Below, piece after piece: positions 54,394-63,339 of a DNA stretch of 64,000 nucleotides. Location of the stretch: NCBI RefSeq assembly GCF_000425305.1, contig NZ_AUDE01000022.1, positions 1 through 64,000 of the forward strand. Reading direction: 5' to 3'. How positions within the stretch are numbered: the first letter of the stretch is position 1; every line of letters begins with the position of its first letter. The DNA comes from Psychroserpens burtonensis DSM 12212. GTDB taxonomy: Bacteria > Bacteroidota > Bacteroidia > Flavobacteriales > Flavobacteriaceae. A program made the translations under genes and the position numbers. Below the pieces are notes generated by a model, which had not been told where the DNA came from, did no database searches, and saw only the letters and a list, made by a program, of their open reading frames with translations.

Positions 54394-55281
54394 ATGTCCG
54401 TAGGTTTTCAAATACTTTTATTAATTCAAAGTGACAAATTCGCAGAAAGAGAGGACGTGATTGCCAATTATTTTTTAATATTTGGTGCTTTTTTAATGCT
54501 CATTTTTTTTATATGGCGCTTGTTGTATTTTTTTGAAATGGCCTATGTAGAGTATTTCAACAAAAAGTTATTTGTAAATCATGTGTATTTTAGAAAAAGA
54601 AAACTCACAAAAAGTCAGAAAGCTATATTAAGACAGAATTTTAAATTCTATCAAAAACTATCGCTAAAGTATCAATCTTATTTTGAGCATCGCGTACATC
54701 AATTTATAAATAGAAGAGAGTTTCTAGGCAATAATGTTGAGGTTACTGAGGAGATGAGAGTTATAATATCGGCTACATTGGTGAAATTAACTTTTGGACT
54801 GAGAGATTATAATATTAAGTCTGTTGAGCGCATTATCTTTTATCCAAAAGAATTTTATTCGCGAACTAATGAAGCGTATCATAAAGGAGAATTTAACTTA
54901 GGCTTAAAAGCGTTGGTGTTTTCGTGGGAAGATGTTTTACATGGCTATGAAATACAGGATGATAATTTGAATTTAGCAATACATGAGTTGACACATGCCA
55001 TTCATTTTTATTATATGGGTGTGAGACGTCGCAGTACAAGTGCTGCTATATTTTTAGATACTTTTGTAGAACTAACTAATATGCTTGATAATAAGCCAGA
55101 ATTGAAGACTAAATTAGTTCAGTCTAACTTTTTAAGGGCATATGCTTTTACAAATCAGTTTGAATTTTTATCTGTCATTATTGAGACCTTTATCGAGTCT
55201 CCTCAGCTTTTTAAAACAGAATTCCCAAGTATTTATAGTAAAGTTAAAACCATGTTAGGTTTTAATTTTTCGGGTTATTAG
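54394..55281 (+). CDS. MtfA-like zinc metallopeptidase (M90 family)
   Basis: 295 residues. An N-terminal membrane helix (about residues 25-48) precedes a soluble domain with the zinc site HELTH at 197-201 in AIHELTHAIHF. MtfA in enterobacteria binds the Mlc repressor and is a peptidase; the flavobacterial relatives are membrane-anchored and of unknown substrate. The reading frame ends 3 bp from the stop of the convergent LysR gene. Confidence 0.85.
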   Translation: MSVGFQILLLIQSDKFAEREDVIANYFLIFGAFLMLIFFIWRLLYFFEMAYVEYFNKKLFVNHVYFRKRKLTKSQKAILRQNFKFYQKLSLKYQSYFEHRVHQFINRREFLGNNVEVTEEMRVIISATLVKLTFGLRDYNIKSVERIIFYPKEFYSRTNEAYHKGEFNLGLKALVFSWEDVLHGYEIQDDNLNLAIHELTHAIHFYYMGVRRRSTSAAIFLDTFVELTNMLDNKPELKTKLVQSNFLRAYAFTNQFEFLSVIIETFIESPQLFKTEFPSIYSKVKTMLGFNFSGY

Positions 55282-56337: not shown

Positions 56338-56922
56338 TTACAGTTTAAAAACTGCATAAAGCATATATTGAAAGTGATTGTTACCATACCTTTCATCTTT
56401 ATGATTGAATGCAAATTTACCGACACCTTGTAAGCTAACACCTATGTCCGAATTTATCCAATAGATACCTCCCAAAACAAAATTAGCAGATCCATTGAGC
56501 TCGTCTACAGTGAAAATCCCTAAACCACTACCTACATAAAGGTCTAACCAAGGCGCATTTCGAAAAATCTCCTCATCAAAGTAATATTTGAAATACGTAT
56601 TTGTAGAGAAATAAGTAAATTCTTGTGGTAATACACCATCATCAATTCTTGATGAGGTATTAAACTTGTTTAAAGTAATGTCTTGTTCTATAGCAAAATA
56701 TCTACTCCATCTATACTGAGCAGCCAAAGCAAGAGGTTGGCTAAATTCAAACTGATCTACTCTTTTGAAAGGATTTTGAGTTCCTAAACTACCTACAGCA
56801 TTGACACCAACACTTACAGTCCAAGAGGCAATATCTCTAAATTGTGATTTTGATAACCTTTGAGAATAACTATCAAAACTAAAAAGCGAGACTAATACTA
56901 TAATTAAAACTATCTTTTTCAT
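56338..56922 (-). CDS. Small outer-membrane beta-barrel protein
   Basis: 194 residues with a signal peptide (MKKIVLIIVLVSLFSFDSYS, cleavage near QRLSKSQ) and strand-like alternation ending in an aromatic-rich C-terminus (HFQYMLYAVFKL), typical of OmpA-like or porin-family barrels. It has its own promoter and terminator. No partner gene indicates a function. Confidence 0.8.
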   Translation of the reverse strand: MKKIVLIIVLVSLFSFDSYSQRLSKSQFRDIASWTVSVGVNAVGSLGTQNPFKRVDQFEFSQPLALAAQYRWSRYFAIEQDITLNKFNTSSRIDDGVLPQEFTYFSTNTYFKYYFDEEIFRNAPWLDLYVGSGLGIFTVDELNGSANFVLGGIYWINSDIGVSLQGVGKFAFNHKDERYGNNHFQYMLYAVFKL

Positions 56923-57002: not shown

Positions 57003-58067
57003 CTAAAATTTTGACTTTAAAAGAGATAAAATCCGTCTGTAGTCTTTTATTATATCTATTCTATAATTTTTATTCTTGACAAAAAAGAAGGATCGATGAC
57101 ATATCAATTTGATGAGCATTGATTTTTTTAACAGAATATCAGTTATTTTTTTTAAAAATTTATTATTCATTCTTTTCAAAAAAAGTTGAGACCTAAATGT
57201 GTTTGATGATACGTCGTTAAAATCACTAAAGAAAAGATGACCAATGGCTATATAGCTTTTAACAAAAGGAAGCTTAAGAAACCCCGTGTCAGTTGTCGTT
57301 AAAGTTTTCATAATTATCATAGTGTCATACAGCGAACGTAGGCTCATTGAATTATAAAAGTACCCAAAATCGTTTACCTGAAAATTTAAAATAGAATGCT
57401 CTAGAAGATGTTGTCGATTAGGAATAGATATGTTTTTTACATTCTTTTTGCTATTTAAAATTTCTTCTGCGTTCAATATACCTTTATATGGCTGTATTAA
57501 TACTTTTCTATGAACTTCAACTGCTCCAATAAATTTTAGAGGAATTAATCGTGGTAAGTGTTTATGCTCAAAATATTTTGAACCTAAGGTTTGTTCTATA
57601 TCAGTATATCCTTCTTTCAAAAGAATACCATAAGACTTGTTGACCTCATTGAGCTCTACCAAAATATCAATATCTCCAACCATACGTTCTCCTGGATCTT
57701 CAAAATAGTTTCCAGCTAACAAAGCGGTTCCTTTTAATAGCGTGTAATTAATATTATTTTTGTTAAAAATATCGGTTATGTGAGTTACTTGCGTCATCAA
57801 ACTATGATTCCGGTTTCTGTTAATATGAGTAATCTCTTTGAGGTATATGACTAAGTCTTTGGGAAGATATATGAGTAATTCCTTTTGAGACAACCTGCAA
57901 TAACATGCAGGCAATACTAAATGGTTACTAGCGATAGTTACAAACTGGTCCCAATCTATTGTGGAAGACGATAATTTAAGTTTTAACCCTTCTATAGAAT
58001 TTTTAAAACTTAAAATATCAGCGATAAGCCGCAGTGTCTCTTTATATGTGTTTTTTATTGATGGCAA
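57003..58067 (-). CDS. Nucleotidyltransferase-fold protein (NTP_transf_5 type), peptide-modification context
   Basis: 354 residues. The nucleotidyltransferase core shows YTLLKGTALLAGNYF (about 109-122), with the conserved KG, and the metal-binding GDIDILVEL (131-139; D132 and D134). This matches the family of uncharacterised nucleotidyltransferases often encoded in lasso-peptide and related RiPP loci next to an HPr-kinase-like gene. It follows the kinase gene by 42 bp on the same strand. A likely role is nucleotidyl transfer to a peptide or to the phosphopeptide made by the kinase. The substrate is inferred from context only. Confidence 0.78.
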   Translation of the reverse strand: MPSIKNTYKETLRLIADILSFKNSIEGLKLKLSSSTIDWDQFVTIASNHLVLPACYCRLSQKELLIYLPKDLVIYLKEITHINRNRNHSLMTQVTHITDIFNKNNINYTLLKGTALLAGNYFEDPGERMVGDIDILVELNEVNKSYGILLKEGYTDIEQTLGSKYFEHKHLPRLIPLKFIGAVEVHRKVLIQPYKGILNAEEILNSKKNVKNISIPNRQHLLEHSILNFQVNDFGYFYNSMSLRSLYDTMIIMKTLTTTDTGFLKLPFVKSYIAIGHLFFSDFNDVSSNTFRSQLFLKRMNNKFLKKITDILLKKSMLIKLICHRSFFFVKNKNYRIDIIKDYRRILSLLKSKF

Positions 58068-58109
58068 ATGTTTAGTTTAAATACGATGTCTATTGAATCA
58101 AATAGTAAG

Positions 58110-59243
58110 TTAGTGATCAAATAGTTCTTTAAATTTACGAATAGCAAAATTATTATTACTGTAAGATAACTCATAGCATGTTATATCACTAAGCCAATTC
58201 ATAAATTTAAGCGCATGTTTTTCATTTGGAGAAATCCATGAGTCTGGAATCAAGGTTTGTAATATGTTTTCTACGGAAATTGGATTTAATTCAGACCTTT
58301 TGTTCTCGTCAAACTTTACATAAACAATCGTCTTACAATCGAAATTAGAGGTCTTATGATCTAATCTTTGATTTTGAGGGACATACTTGAGGTTCACTTT
58401 TTTAGGACCATTAGTATGTGTTCTTAAGGAATGAAAACCCGGTATTTTTGATTCTAAAAGGCTAAAGGCACCTGTCTTAATTGAGATTGCACTAGGATAT
58501 CGATATAAATTCATATCCTCATACATAGGTGTGAAATCGTCTGCTAATAAATCGAAACCATCGGCCATCAATAGAGCGGATAATGTGCTTTTTCCATTGC
58601 CAGAATCTCCAATAATCATAATTGATTCTTTGCTATTGGCTATGGTTGAAGCATGAAAAGTAGCAACCCAATTATCAATGATTGTTTTATGAATAGCATT
58701 GGTTAATTCTAAAGCAAAACGGCCTTGTAGGAGATGTAAATCTTTAGTTTTATAATGATTTAAATAGGTGTTATTCCTAAATAAATAGAGGTAATCTTTG
58801 TTTTTAAAGATATGAAACTCTTTAAAGGTGTTGGGCGTGACAGCTGTTTGATGATGCGCTATCTGAGGATGAATGATACTCTGTATTAAGGGCGTTTCAA
58901 AATTCACTTTTATTACCGTAGTTTTAAATTTATAAAACGTTACACAATTTACTTTGGGTATAATAATACGGTTGAGAGGTTCTGTTTTTGTGTGTGTATG
59001 TGTGTTTGAATCTATAAGGAAACTCGAAATGTCATCAAAAAGATCTTGACATTTTGAATCTTCAATTTGCAGAGAGGTCTTTAACTCATCAACAAATGAA
59101 TTTTGGGTGTCTTCTTTAATATAGATACCAATTAGTGTCCATACACTACTAGACACTATAACATATCTATTAGAGGCTTTAAACCAAAGGAGAAAAGTGT
59201 CGTTAATATTACGAACGTGCTTAGGCGCTAAATTCGTTTTCAA
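58110..59243 (-). CDS. PqqD-like domain fused to an HPr-kinase-like domain
   Basis: 377 residues. The first ~80 residues resemble a PqqD/RRE domain: SSSVWTLIGI, then SFVDELKTSLQI and a final helix DLFDDISSFLID match the pattern by which PqqD-like modules bind RiPP leader peptides. The C-terminal half resembles HPr kinase/phosphorylase: FHAS at 197-200, Walker A GDSGNGKST at 212-220, and LLADD at 232-236. Related stand-alone kinases phosphorylate the C-terminal serine of lasso peptides such as paeninodin. A 53-residue peptide gene ends 14 bp upstream. The residue ~85 region contains repeated HT (THTHTKT). The peptide substrate is an inference. Confidence 0.8.
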   Translation of the reverse strand: MKTNLAPKHVRNINDTFLLWFKASNRYVIVSSSVWTLIGIYIKEDTQNSFVDELKTSLQIEDSKCQDLFDDISSFLIDSNTHTHTKTEPLNRIIIPKVNCVTFYKFKTTVIKVNFETPLIQSIIHPQIAHHQTAVTPNTFKEFHIFKNKDYLYLFRNNTYLNHYKTKDLHLLQGRFALELTNAIHKTIIDNWVATFHASTIANSKESIMIIGDSGNGKSTLSALLMADGFDLLADDFTPMYEDMNLYRYPSAISIKTGAFSLLESKIPGFHSLRTHTNGPKKVNLKYVPQNQRLDHKTSNFDCKTIVYVKFDENKRSELNPISVENILQTLIPDSWISPNEKHALKFMNWLSDITCYELSYSNNNFAIRKFKELFDH

Positions 59244-59257
59244 AATAAAAGATGTGA

Positions 59258-59419
59258 TTAATCAAATGGATTTCCTCCTGGATCAACAGGTGAAGTAGCT
59301 TGTGCTTTCTGTGGGTTTAGAATAAGAAACGTACCCATTGCAGTAAGTGCAGCGTACTTACCCATCTTTTTCATGGCTTCTTTACGAGTGATTTGATCTT
59401 GAGGACTATTTCTTTTCAT
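59258..59419 (-). CDS. Candidate RiPP precursor or exported small peptide (53 residues)
   Basis: Short open frame ending 14 bp before the RRE-kinase gene. It begins MKRNSPQDQITRKEAMKKMG, continues with a hydrophobic stretch YAALTAMGTFLIL, and then NPQKAQA followed by TSPVDPGGNPFD. The layout is a charged leader with hydrophobic core, a plausible AxA-like cleavage (QKAQA) and a 12-residue tail rich in G, P and D. The close spacing with a leader-binding kinase fusion and a nucleotidyltransferase makes it the likely substrate of both. Alternatives are a plain small secreted protein or an unrelated small membrane protein. I do not recognise a named family. Confidence 0.68.
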   Translation of the reverse strand: MKRNSPQDQITRKEAMKKMGKYAALTAMGTFLILNPQKAQATSPVDPGGNPFD

Positions 59420-59438: not shown

Positions 59439-59446
59439 CAAAAGTA
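59439..59446 (-). promoter_or_regulatory. Candidate -7 box of the peptide operon
   Basis: TACTTTTG on the minus strand (TAnnTTTG), 20 bp before the peptide ATG. No convincing -33 TTTG at 19 bp. Confidence 0.4.
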
Positions 59447-59737: not shown

Positions 59738-59767
59738 AAAAACGTATTCTGTAAAGAATACGTTTTT
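59738..59767 (-). terminator. Terminator of the T9SS cargo gene
   Basis: AAAAACGTATTC (59738-59749) pairs perfectly with GAATACGTTTTT (59756-59767). On the minus strand it ends in a T-run. Confidence 0.9.
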
Positions 59768-59790: not shown

Positions 59791-62700
59791 TTATTTGATA
59801 ATCACTTTTTTAGATTTTTGTTGCAGTCCATTATTTAATTTAACAACATAAATACCAGATGTAAATCCTGAGATATCAATTTGATTAGAATTGCGTGAAG
59901 TATCTAATTTAGAGTTTAAGATCATTCGACCTTGAATATCATAAATTTCAACTGTGGTATTGTTCTCAAGTGCTCCTTTTATAAATAAGATCTTAGGCGT
60001 TTTCGTTGTGTAAATTTGAATAGTTTCAAAGTTGTTTTCTGAAGTTGATAAAGCATCTGCAGTAAACCTTAAGAAGAAACGTCCTGTTCCTAATAAGTTC
60101 GTACTTGGAGTGAAAACATATTCCGAAGTATTTAATAATGTAAACGTATTCGTTAACGTGTCTTCCAAATACACCTCAATACCTTCTGGTATATCCATTT
60201 CTAAAATACCTATTGTTAGTTGTTCGCCTTGATTAGCATTAACTCCTAAAGGAATAACGACAGTGTTTAAAGCAGTGTAATTAACAGATTGAACTGCTAA
60301 ATCTAAGCCTGAGTTATCAGTGACTAAGTGCGAAAATATGGCAAACTCTGGTGCTTGACCTTGGAACATTCCAGAGTCGTAACCAGCATCCATACTCAAT
60401 GTTGCATTATTATTGAAATAAATATCGGTTCTAAATGCATCAGTATCACTAGTCATTTCAAGTTTCACATGTGCCAGATCGACCTCGCTAACTCGTCCTA
60501 CAACAAAGTCATCTGTAGTTCCGATAGAACGGGATGCAGCATCAAAAATAATGGTACCGCCCCCAACTTTGGAAGTTACCAAAAATCCTTGGCCTGGTGC
60601 AATCAATGCTGATGGATTAGCATCAGAATAGGCTTGATTCCAAATTGTAAATCCGTCTGTTGCTGAGCCATCATAGCCATAAACGCCAGAATTTGAAGCG
60701 CTAAATTCACTGTTATTATCTGATAAGAAGTCTGAAAGCTTAATATAGGAAGGGTAAGGATTACCAATTAAATTGAAATCAGTTCCAGTGCCTACCGCTA
60801 TTGGGACTAATTTGGTTGTGGTTTCTACATTACCAACAAATCTAAATGCAGATCCTGTTGCTGCCGTAGAGGCTGTTCTATATCCAATTCCTGCTTCAAT
60901 AAGAGAACCGTCGTCTGCGGTTGTGTAATTGATATAATCATTGGTGTCTTTATCAAAAGGGCCAAACAAGAACGAAGATACACCATCAATTGTTCCTGAT
61001 GGTACATCTGGATTAGCAGTTCTAAATTCTAAAAATGTTTGATTGGTATTTGTAACAGGTGCTGCAATTAAATCGTTCTTACCTGTAGAAGAACCTGTAT
61101 CGGCTAATTGGTTGACATGGCGATTATAAATGACTTCACCTCTTACGTTATTAGAAATCAAACTAGAGTAACTTGTAGACGCTGAGTTTAATTCAATGAC
61201 ACCAAAATTGACGATACCTGTGTTAGCTTTTATAGACTGTCCAAATGAGACTATTGTTGTCGCAGCTTCATCAACATATAAATTATTGACTTGAATGTTG
61301 GTGCCTATATTATAGGTGCCATCAAGAACATACGCATTGTCGCTTCCTGTTGTGTTAGACGGAGCATTTGGAGACCAACCGTTATCTACATAGAGTAAGC
61401 CGTCAAACGCGCTTGTTAATTTGAAGTTATCAAATCCAGAGAAGTGTGTAACACCGTTATCCCTTATACTTAACTGTAACCCAACAGTGGTAGTTCCATC
61501 CGGGATGTCTAAGCGAACAATGCCTTCATCAGACTCTACAGGACCATTACCATCAAATAAAAGGATGCTAGCTTGAGGTATTCCATCTAGTACTAAATTA
61601 TAACGTACATCATCACTGTTATTAGTGAAATTTTCGACATCCCATTCGAAACTAACTCCAACATTTTCAAAGCTGCTTACGTCAACGTTAACAAATGTTA
61701 TGGTTGCAAAACCACTTGTTCCGTTTCCTTCGTCATTCAAATCATTTTCACCTAAAATATTATTTGAGAATAAATTATTATCAAGTGGTGAAGCGTTTAC
61801 GATGTCAATAACACCAAAATAACCATCTATTCCCCAACCATTATCAAATGTCGGTACATCGGTTGCATAAGTCCATTCTGGTAAAGAGCCATCAAAATCT
61901 TGGATTGCAATGGTGATTAATGGACCATCAATATCAAATGGATTACTTATGGCTGATATTAGACCTCCTCCAAACGTTAAAAGTGTTGTTTCGGTTTCCT
62001 GTTCAGAAAATATAATGGTATTCAATGTTGCAAAACCGTTAATCATTGTATATTCAATTATGGATGGCTCTAAAGAACCAGCTGCTATAACAGAGAAATC
62101 ACTGTTATAATCTAAATCGTGGCTACCATTATCATCAACAGCCAAAACTGTTGGAAAAGGGGTCATGATTTCAAATTGAAATGAATTCGTGGGCTGTTGG
62201 TCAAACGTTAATGCACTGACGATAACTTCAATTCTGTTATCATCACCAAATATTGGTGTTGATGCACCACCGGCATCGAATGCAGTAAAAGTAGAGCCAG
62301 AAACTGCATCAGCAACAGCGGTATTAATAATGAGCTCGATTTGTTGATTATCATTTACAATATTTTTGAATGTTGCATAGACCGCAAAAGCTTTAGAATT
62401 ATCATCTAGTGCAATCAATCCACTACCTGAATTTATAGCACTAAAATCTATATTACCCGAAACAGAGTTAATCTCACCTATATTTGTTGTACCATCAAAT
62501 AGGGCTAATGCAGCAATATATTCAAAATTATTAACGGTAAATGATAAGTCTGTAAGTGCTGTACCTAAAGCATCTGAATCTAATAAGTCATTTCCACCAT
62601 CTTGAATAAGAAATTCACCTATTTGTATTGAATTAGACGTAGTTAGTCCTGATGTTGCATTGTTCTCGATATAGTTGATGTTATCCGTAGGGTCAAAATT

Positions 62701-63339
62701 ACTAGAGACTATATTTGATTCTGTGCTGTTAGGAGTTGTAGTGGTAATATTTCCGAGTAATCGAATGCCAGGATTGCTAATCCCAAAATCAGACCAAGCA
62801 GTTTCGCCTATTACTCGAAACCATCCTGAACTAGTTGTTGATCCCCAAGCATAAATTCTAAAAGTGATTGTTCCGGAAATACCGGAATTTATGTTAAGAC
62901 TGTTAAAGTTATAAATAGTCGTAGTTGTTGAAGCGCTTTGTAAAGCATTAACGGCTATGCCAGTAGTAGCAAAATTATCTAAACTGTAAAATAACTGCCA
63001 ATTGACTGGCCCTGAAGTGCTTCTTCTTAATTTAAGGTCTAATTCTGTAATTTCTATATCATTACTGGCATTAGAGGTAACTGACCATTGTAAATATTCA
63101 TTATTGGCCTCAGCATTAGCTAGACTTGCCTCATCCCAGTTTCTGGTTGAAAAATTTGAGCTTCCTGTATGTTGTATTACTCCTGCACCTCTAATAATTC
63201 CTACCGATGAAATTGAAGGATCGTTTCCTGTTGCTGTTGGTCCAATAACATTAGCTCTATCAATTGTAACAAGGGTGGATTGACTGAATCCAATAGCAAA
63301 AAAGAAAAATGCTAATAATACTAAGTAGTTGTTTTTCAT
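59791..63339 (-). CDS. Large secreted protein with type IX secretion C-terminal sorting domain
   Basis: 1182 residues. Signal peptide MKNNYLVLLAFFFFAIGFSQ. The body is made of Ser/Thr/Asn/Asp-rich beta-sandwich-like repeats without a catalytic motif that I can recognise; the TITFRIYAWGSTTSSGWFRV region and GFDNFKLTSAFDG segment look like adhesive or carbohydrate-binding modules. The last ~75 residues contain VEIYDIQGRMILNSKL and ISGFTSGIYVVKL, ending KKVIIK, the type A T9SS sorting domain. The protein is exported by the type IX system and attached to or released from the cell surface. It is transcribed alone on the minus strand. Confidence 0.9.
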   Translation of the reverse strand: MKNNYLVLLAFFFFAIGFSQSTLVTIDRANVIGPTATGNDPSISSVGIIRGAGVIQHTGSSNFSTRNWDEASLANAEANNEYLQWSVTSNASNDIEITELDLKLRRSTSGPVNWQLFYSLDNFATTGIAVNALQSASTTTTIYNFNSLNINSGISGTITFRIYAWGSTTSSGWFRVIGETAWSDFGISNPGIRLLGNITTTTPNSTESNIVSSNFDPTDNINYIENNATSGLTTSNSIQIGEFLIQDGGNDLLDSDALGTALTDLSFTVNNFEYIAALALFDGTTNIGEINSVSGNIDFSAINSGSGLIALDDNSKAFAVYATFKNIVNDNQQIELIINTAVADAVSGSTFTAFDAGGASTPIFGDDNRIEVIVSALTFDQQPTNSFQFEIMTPFPTVLAVDDNGSHDLDYNSDFSVIAAGSLEPSIIEYTMINGFATLNTIIFSEQETETTLLTFGGGLISAISNPFDIDGPLITIAIQDFDGSLPEWTYATDVPTFDNGWGIDGYFGVIDIVNASPLDNNLFSNNILGENDLNDEGNGTSGFATITFVNVDVSSFENVGVSFEWDVENFTNNSDDVRYNLVLDGIPQASILLFDGNGPVESDEGIVRLDIPDGTTTVGLQLSIRDNGVTHFSGFDNFKLTSAFDGLLYVDNGWSPNAPSNTTGSDNAYVLDGTYNIGTNIQVNNLYVDEAATTIVSFGQSIKANTGIVNFGVIELNSASTSYSSLISNNVRGEVIYNRHVNQLADTGSSTGKNDLIAAPVTNTNQTFLEFRTANPDVPSGTIDGVSSFLFGPFDKDTNDYINYTTADDGSLIEAGIGYRTASTAATGSAFRFVGNVETTTKLVPIAVGTGTDFNLIGNPYPSYIKLSDFLSDNNSEFSASNSGVYGYDGSATDGFTIWNQAYSDANPSALIAPGQGFLVTSKVGGGTIIFDAASRSIGTTDDFVVGRVSEVDLAHVKLEMTSDTDAFRTDIYFNNNATLSMDAGYDSGMFQGQAPEFAIFSHLVTDNSGLDLAVQSVNYTALNTVVIPLGVNANQGEQLTIGILEMDIPEGIEVYLEDTLTNTFTLLNTSEYVFTPSTNLLGTGRFFLRFTADALSTSENNFETIQIYTTKTPKILFIKGALENNTTVEIYDIQGRMILNSKLDTSRNSNQIDISGFTSGIYVVKLNNGLQQKSKKVIIK

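Follow-up and report, generated by a model that had tools for sequence, protein, structure and literature searches.

Which product does a small peptide gene yield when genes for a kinase and a nucleotidyltransferase follow it at once, and what does that product serve in a marine flavobacterium? The question is raised by three genes on the minus strand, at positions 57003 to 59419, of a 64,000-nucleotide stretch of DNA from Psychroserpens burtonensis DSM 12212 (contig NZ_AUDE01000022.1, positions 1 to 64,000), referred to here as the window. An earlier note, made from the letters alone, had taken them for a putative minimal operon that tailors a ribosomally synthesized and post-translationally modified peptide (RiPP). 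Our analysis starts from the gene set, its conservation, the folds of the enzymes, an invariant serine in the peptide, phyletic linkage and gene adjacency, all of which were observed, and we consider it probable that the product is an exported phosphopeptide serving RemA/RemZ-like surface proteins secreted by the type IX secretion system (T9SS).

A conserved three-gene set

The precursor peptide gene (59258..59419, minus strand) begins with ATG and encodes 53 amino acids, MKRNSPQDQITRKEAMKKMGKYAALTAMGTFLILNPQKAQATSPVDPGGNPFD. It is followed after 14 bp by a gene with a TTG start (58110..59243, minus strand), which encodes a 377-residue fusion of a domain resembling a RiPP recognition element (RRE) with an HprK-type kinase and contains the Walker A motif GDSGNGKST at residues 212-220 (58584..58610, minus strand). 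After a further 42 bp, in tandem on the same strand, lies a gene, also with a TTG start, for a 354-residue nucleotidyltransferase of the NTP_transf_5 family (PF14907; 57003..58067), in which the motif GDIDILV occupies residues 131-137. An open reading frame (ORF) check confirmed the three frames, sizes, gaps and motifs that the earlier note had described.

The genus set comprised 23 genomes, mostly named Psychroserpens (one of them, G022, bears the name Subsaximicrobium wynnwilliamsii). The kinase gene was present in 21 of them, in one copy each, with the peptide gene directly upstream in all 21. The peptide, the nucleotidyltransferase and a strong match to the cargo module described below were also found in 21/23 genomes, and all four were absent from G010 and G016, each of which is 99% complete. 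This pattern bore out the proposal that the three genes form one unit. The spacing from peptide to kinase was 8 to 17 bp, with a single overlap of 8 bp, in the 21 genus loci, and the first possible kinase start was TTG in every one. The median ratio of nonsynonymous to synonymous substitution rates (dN/dS) of the peptide ORF within the genus was 0.058 (163 usable of 210 pairs), which indicates strong purifying selection, and therefore the peptide ORF is a real gene; purely synonymous variation was seen at 20 of the 44 codons compared.

The three genes recur as a set among marine flavobacteria. The kinase was found in 29 of 299 family genomes, after three of the 32 genomes that matched at E 0.001 (G149, G151 and G267; E 2.6e-5 to 9.2e-4) had been dropped as short or broken; from the family peptide count, 3 of 35 were left out (G027, G173 and G298; E 0.005-0.009). 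An intact peptide ORF stood directly upstream of the kinase in 22 of the 29 carriers. The kinase lay at a contig end in three others (G069, G088 and G170), the upstream ORF was interrupted in G172, and the order in G026 (locus L108) was cargo, peptide, nucleotidyltransferase, kinase, which sets it apart from the other loci whose adjoining genes were read. The nucleotidyltransferase adjoined the kinase in 24 of the 28 kinase regions fetched, and two of the remaining four regions end near the kinase. When 395 genomes sampled across the phylum were examined, with four candidates scored per genome, full-length kinase matches were obtained in five, all belonging to the same family (Flavobacteriaceae), while the other 50 matching genomes showed the kinase domain only, at 53 bits or less. 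The named carriers extend to Gelidibacter, Subsaxibacter, Lutibacter and Mangrovimonas (37 loci, of which two, in Bacilli, do not belong to this system).

The peptide and its two enzymes

The window peptide had no match in Pfam or NCBIfam at E 1, and its homologues were compared with one another. After three of the 83 distinct strings had been set aside as truncated or degenerate, 80 distinct peptides remained, which are not mutually independent. They share the leader consensus [IM][TS]R[KN]EA..(K/R)MGKYAALTAxGTFxILNP, followed by (K)xAxA; the motif of the window leader is ITRKEA..MGKYAALTA.GTF.ILNP. From this conservation, residues 1-41 (59297..59419, minus strand), ending in the signal-peptidase-like A39-Q40-A41, are predicted to be a leader that is also a signal peptide, and residues 42-53, TSPVDPGGNPFD (59261..59296, minus strand), the core. 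The site at +3 to +5 from the conserved proline was AxA in 61/80 peptides and SxA in 7/80, and was otherwise relaxed. At +7, serine was found in 79 of the 80 and tyrosine in one, between highly variable positions +6 and +8. Because the presumed cut follows AxA, this serine would be residue 2 of the core, S43 in the window (codon 59291..59293, minus strand). We infer export, cleavage behind AxA and a role for the peptide as kinase substrate, with S43 as the candidate phosphorylation site. The TRK(E)A part of the leader had RK in 74/80 peptides and RN in 4/80, two being unread by the pattern; a Tat-type RR occurred in none of the 78 read, and the single Tat-type NCBIfam match among 32 peptides was weak (E 0.035).

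These data change several points of the first reading. It had placed the modification on the tail generally, and the single invariant serine is the better candidate. Tails after AxA had a median length of 12 residues and a range of 8 to 55, and the GG-P-F-D ending pointed out in the note was rejected as a key feature since GG occurred in 58 of 80 tails. The absence of an exporter gene, which had been treated as meaningful, need not be a lack: because the leader resembles a signal peptide ending in AxA, such a gene would not be required.

Some peptide genes of the family have other neighbours. PGGG-tailed paralogues lie directly upstream of a GTPase gene, assigned as Era by eye, in three genus members (L230:5407-5571, L231:4973-5140 and L232:5170-5328); upstream of the paralogue, L231 has an RNA methylase (SpoU) and a 678-residue protein without a Pfam match, both with look-alikes in L232. 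Lcl_C-like (PF07603) proteins flank or precede family peptide genes in two genera (L088:8739-10958 and L229:2327-4999), two of the four scanned being above the Pfam cut-off. Near a stand-alone peptide gene in G144 (L088:4079-6002) there are five consecutive ORFs of one family, 119 residues each, with a period of about 391 bp.

The N-terminal domain of the kinase (residues 1-80, 59004..59243, minus strand) had been called PqqD-like. A confident AlphaFold2 model gave it the βββααα order of PqqD/RRE domains (strands 9-13, 16-21 and 26-31; helices 32-43, 47-58 and 62-79), and HHalign against PqqD gave a score of 24.2, at a probability of 28%, versus at most 14.1 in 30 shuffles. HMMER with Pfam and NCBIfam detected no PqqD in the kinase, and PqqD did not appear among the 25 commonest of 55 families either. 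Profile similarity to PqqD was thus seen by HHalign, at modest probability, and not by HMMER, and a PqqD/RRE topology is supported by the AlphaFold2 model together with the modest HHalign match. A discrete RRE (PF05402) was not found in the same genome at E 1e-5.

The rest of the protein (residues 86-377, 58113..58988, minus strand) is an HprK/PEPCK-fold kinase, in agreement with the HPr-kinase-like C-terminus first described, and H197, K218, D235 and D236 were invariant in 29/29 kinases. Its best curated match was HprK-related kinase A (TIGR04352), with 60.4 bits over residues 195-374, while the Hpr_kinase_C match was weak. Membership in TIGR04352 (HPr-rel-A) was rejected, the score being far under the 200-bit cut-off, and the flavobacterial kinase differs by its extra RRE-like front domain. 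A region of Paenibacillus glacialis (L164:3494-5651) encodes two tandem HprK-like proteins, which by eye adjoin methyltransferase and isopropylmalate-type genes.

The third gene was confirmed as a nucleotidyltransferase (PF14907, E 4.8e-30), and residues K112, G113, R128, D132, D134, E184 and H186 were invariant in 28/28 sequences. By analogy with PsmN, discussed below, it may act on the phosphate by nucleotidyl or sugar transfer. The family names, Hpr_kinase_C and nucleotidyltransferase, would by themselves also suit a regulatory HPr-kinase-like switch or a toxin-antitoxin-like nucleotidyltransferase pair to which the peptide is incidental; however, the conserved leader and the joint occurrence of the enzymes with a signal-peptide-bearing peptide and T9SS module proteins make this highly improbable.

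The upstream T9SS cargo and its joint occurrence with the cassette

The earlier note had overlooked the gene upstream of the peptide, whose product carries a RemA/RemZ-like module with the same phyletic pattern as the cassette. This gene (59791..63339, minus strand) encodes a large secreted T9SS cargo of 1182 residues. The C-terminal sorting domain (Por_Secre_tail, PF18962; residues 1124-1181, 59797..59970, minus strand) matched at E 5.9e-12 and 46.1 bits (cut-off 27), and TIGR04183 gave 49 bits (cut-off 23). Just ahead of it, about 400 residues are common to the upstream cargos, and in the window this module (60025..61233, minus strand) is a strong-class match. RemA is a gliding adhesin of the Flavobacterium johnsoniae T9SS and RemZ (Fjoh_0803) is its homologue (PMC10994853). 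The cargo module matched RemZ at 1.5e-33 and RemA at 8.2e-32, and the alignment ran over the whole module (RemZ 626-1035, RemA 957-1356). Like RemA and RemZ, the cargo is a type A substrate. Unlike them, with 114-120 bits, the peptide-linked modules form a stronger-scoring subclass of at least 190 bits; the RemA and RemZ scores fall within the range of modules from non-carriers (at most 150 bits, G087, G142 and G312 apart).

We analyzed gene neighbourhoods in 40 regions, none longer than 20 kb. The same-strand upstream neighbour was a family cargo for 27 of 30 peptide genes, the exceptions being an intervening second peptide gene (L082), an Lcl_C protein (L088) and an intervening opposite-strand gene (L102). 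A phmmer search with the window cargo found 26 of the 27 upstream cargos, missing L107; L107 and L108 were added by eye to the module profile, A6. Six upstream cargos were scanned for the sorting domain, of which four were above the Pfam cut-off, one was below it and one had none.

Signals between the two genes were also recorded in the window. An intrinsic-terminator-like hairpin of 13 pairs with a T run follows the cargo gene (59738..59767, minus strand) and separates it from the peptide gene; two such hairpins were found in the region, versus 1.1 expected in shuffles. The sequence TACTTTTG (59439..59446, minus strand), which begins 27 bp before the peptide ATG, fits TAnnTTTG, the Bacteroidota -7 element. 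Of 40 loci, 31 have this motif in the 75 bp ahead of the peptide, versus 5.9% of single-base shuffles. In seven of the nine loci without it the gap to the cargo gene was 38 bp or less, which suggests read-through.

Module and cassette also occurred together across genomes. In the genus, where a strong module was defined by E at most 1e-40 and each positive genome had 1 to 14 matches, 29 of the 34 peptide matches lay directly 3' of a module gene. The window species itself has a single strong module match, with one peptide and one kinase. In the family, 33 genomes carried the kinase or the peptide and 34 had a module of at least 190 bits, with an overlap of 31 (p 2.3e-36). The genus result is the fairer test, because A6 was built from carriers and the family cut was set after the scores had been seen; 18 of the 21 positive genus genomes contributed no row to A6. 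The joint phyletic pattern of the cassette and the adhesins suggests that the modified peptide serves those adhesins.

The pairing of cargo and peptide was kept at loci where the kinase was elsewhere or was not found (L089, L107, L110 and L111). Such pairing away from the enzymes is what would be expected if the peptide were an unmodified exported partner of the T9SS proteins, acting as chaperone, cap or ligand, while the enzymes acted on some other substrate, such as the adhesin itself, a lipid-linked sugar or a glycan of the envelope. Sugar-nucleotide and NusG-like families (c6, c12 and c13) in 11 of the 28 kinase regions fit this as well, a count that comes from annotated representatives with no genome background. 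However, the kinase follows the peptide by 8-17 bp or overlaps it in all 21 genus loci, it has an RRE-like domain, of a kind known to bind peptide leaders, and one serine is invariant among variable peptide residues. We therefore regard the unmodified partner as unlikely, though to be taken seriously.

Proposed pathway, related systems and neighbouring genes

In the phosphopeptide reading, which we prefer, the order of the steps and the role at the cargo would be as follows. The precursor would be made with a leader that doubles as a Sec/Tat-type signal peptide. While the precursor is still in the cytoplasm, its leader would be bound by the PqqD/RRE-like N-domain, which would present the peptide to the fused HprK-type kinase; this in turn would phosphorylate the invariant serine (S43) adjoining the future cleavage site; the PF14907 enzyme may then elaborate the phosphate. 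After export, a signal peptidase would cut behind AxA and release a short core with the modified serine at position 2. At the envelope the core would be a ligand, cap or anchor, acting with the T9SS proteins that have a RemA-type module just ahead of the sorting domain.

Single-molecule work suggested that RemA is anchored at the surface before its release (PMC12618676). A bolder version of our reading, which we put forward tentatively and think rather doubtful, gives the peptide a fixed place on the cell surface. Having received a phosphate and then a sugar or nucleotidyl group on one serine in the cytoplasm, it would serve this adhesin class as its dedicated surface anchor or as an obligatory ligand, and the module, once sorting-domain cleavage has left it at the new C-terminus, would bind or be joined to the peptide. 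If so, one kinase and one nucleotidyltransferase would serve the 1 to 14 adhesins of a genome, and a RiPP would be a part of the cell surface and not a released metabolite.

The closest described systems are the linear polyphosphorylated peptides (LPPs), such as the lpp cluster of Paenibacillus alginolyticus (Popov et al. 2026, PMC13381572). According to the main text of that paper, the Bacillota LPP cluster encodes an RRE, an HprK-like kinase that phosphorylates S3 of the core, an NTP transferase and a leader peptidase of signal-peptidase type; deletion of lppN caused no detectable change, and the biological roles of LPPs and paeninodins are stated there as unknown. The word stem 'Bacteroid' is absent from this main text. 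As far as its description goes, the flavobacterial locus is alike in its linear precursor with a conserved N-part and a variable C-part, in its RRE-like domain and its HprK-like kinase beside the precursor, in the NTP transferase, in leader removal of signal-peptidase type (predicted here) with a serine within three residues of the cut (phosphorylated in LPP), and in frequent proximity to capsule loci. It differs in having no discrete RRE protein, the RRE-like domain being fused as the kinase N-terminus; in a leader that lacks the YxxPx[V/L] motif and resembles a signal peptide, which would stand in for a dedicated peptidase and exporter; in its Flavobacteriaceae host, as opposed to Bacillota; in a T9SS cargo as partner; and in that SipW-like LppS and MsbA-like LppD were not seen in the cassette, nor recognised as recurring neighbours among the annotated families of the 40 regions. 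The cassette appears to work like an LPP system but is not classed as one, because two defining features, the discrete RRE and YxxP, fail. The best reading is an LPP-like Bacteroidota system in which the kinase itself carries the RRE, the leader is a signal peptide and the product is a phosphorylated, perhaps glycosylated, peptide for RemA-type adhesins.

Among lasso peptides, paeninodin (PadeK) and pseudomycoidin (PsmK, PsmN) are made with an HprK-like kinase that has the same His-Lys-Asp-Asp motif, and pseudomycoidin has an annotated nucleotidyltransferase acting after phosphorylation, the model for ours (PMC9266682). There PsmN was linked to hexoses on the phosphoserine made by PsmK, and nucleotidylation followed by a host glycosyltransferase was not excluded. 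This kinship of the enzyme pair is what would recommend the locus as the part of a pathway that tailors a lasso or another macrocyclic RiPP, with its cyclase and protease elsewhere in the genome. However, the B2 domain (Transglut_core3, PF13471) was found in 0/23 genus genomes at E 0.001, the candidate site is near the core N-terminus whereas the phosphorylated lassos described carry theirs on the C-terminal serine, and the tails range in length between 8 and 55 residues. Lasso tailoring was accordingly rejected as largely refuted, and we give it very little credence; from the original RiPP proposal the phosphorylated peptide still fits and the lasso does not. In the flavobacteria, adjacency and co-occurrence tie an enzyme pair of this sort to a defined partner, the RemA/RemZ-like T9SS surface proteins, so the role of such phosphopeptides is directly testable by knockout in marine laboratory strains. 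The link would also help to explain how type A, RemA-like proteins are kept on the cell surface, and would connect RiPP chemistry with protein secretion and gliding.

Several observations weigh against the phosphopeptide reading. The site had neither AxA nor SxA in 12/80 peptides, the leader lacks the YxxP motif bound by LPP and lasso RREs, and PqqD was not found in the kinase by HMMER and reached a probability of 28% in HHalign. The small peptide expected before the kinase was there in most homologous loci and not in G076 and G144 (2/29), both of which have peptide genes elsewhere; G076 and G170 have no nucleotidyltransferase of the family after the kinase. Among the six cargos scanned, L107 had no Pfam sorting domain and L098 was below the cut-off. 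Five genus peptide matches lay away from module cargo: three (G003:C4, G011:C294 and G015:C13) have PGGG-type tails and stand next to Era (by eye), G003:C6 follows two Lcl_C proteins that themselves come after module cargo, and G019:C1:216183 is interrupted by stops. Many modules had no adjoining peptide: the module matches numbered 134, with some proteins counted twice because they matched in two pieces, and the peptide matches 34. In the family, G142 (99% complete) had a strong module without kinase or peptide, G087 and G312 (80% and 84% complete) had a strong module only, and G157 and G315 had the peptide but no strong module. The making of A6 from carriers favoured carriers, the 190-bit cut was chosen with the next non-carrier match at 149.9 bits, and the family scan scored at most six candidates per genome.

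The genes around the cassette were also recorded. Directly downstream of the nucleotidyltransferase, a small protein resembling an outer-membrane beta-barrel (56338..56922, minus strand) was assigned from a weak Pfam match (E 0.075), and its family was found at the equivalent place in 11 of the 28 kinase regions. A Peptidase_M90 gene (4.3e-29) lies at 54394-55281 in the window, and this family occurred in 10 of the 40 regions. The M90 gene is retained in G010 and G016; the 18 kb around it contained no cassette, module cargo or barrel in either genome, and G016 showed a 90-residue similarity to a T9SS tail. Beyond the window end, past the cargo gene (L079:14637-18957), there are EPSP-synthase-family, polysaccharide-flippase-like and MurB genes, possibly a surface-polysaccharide locus.

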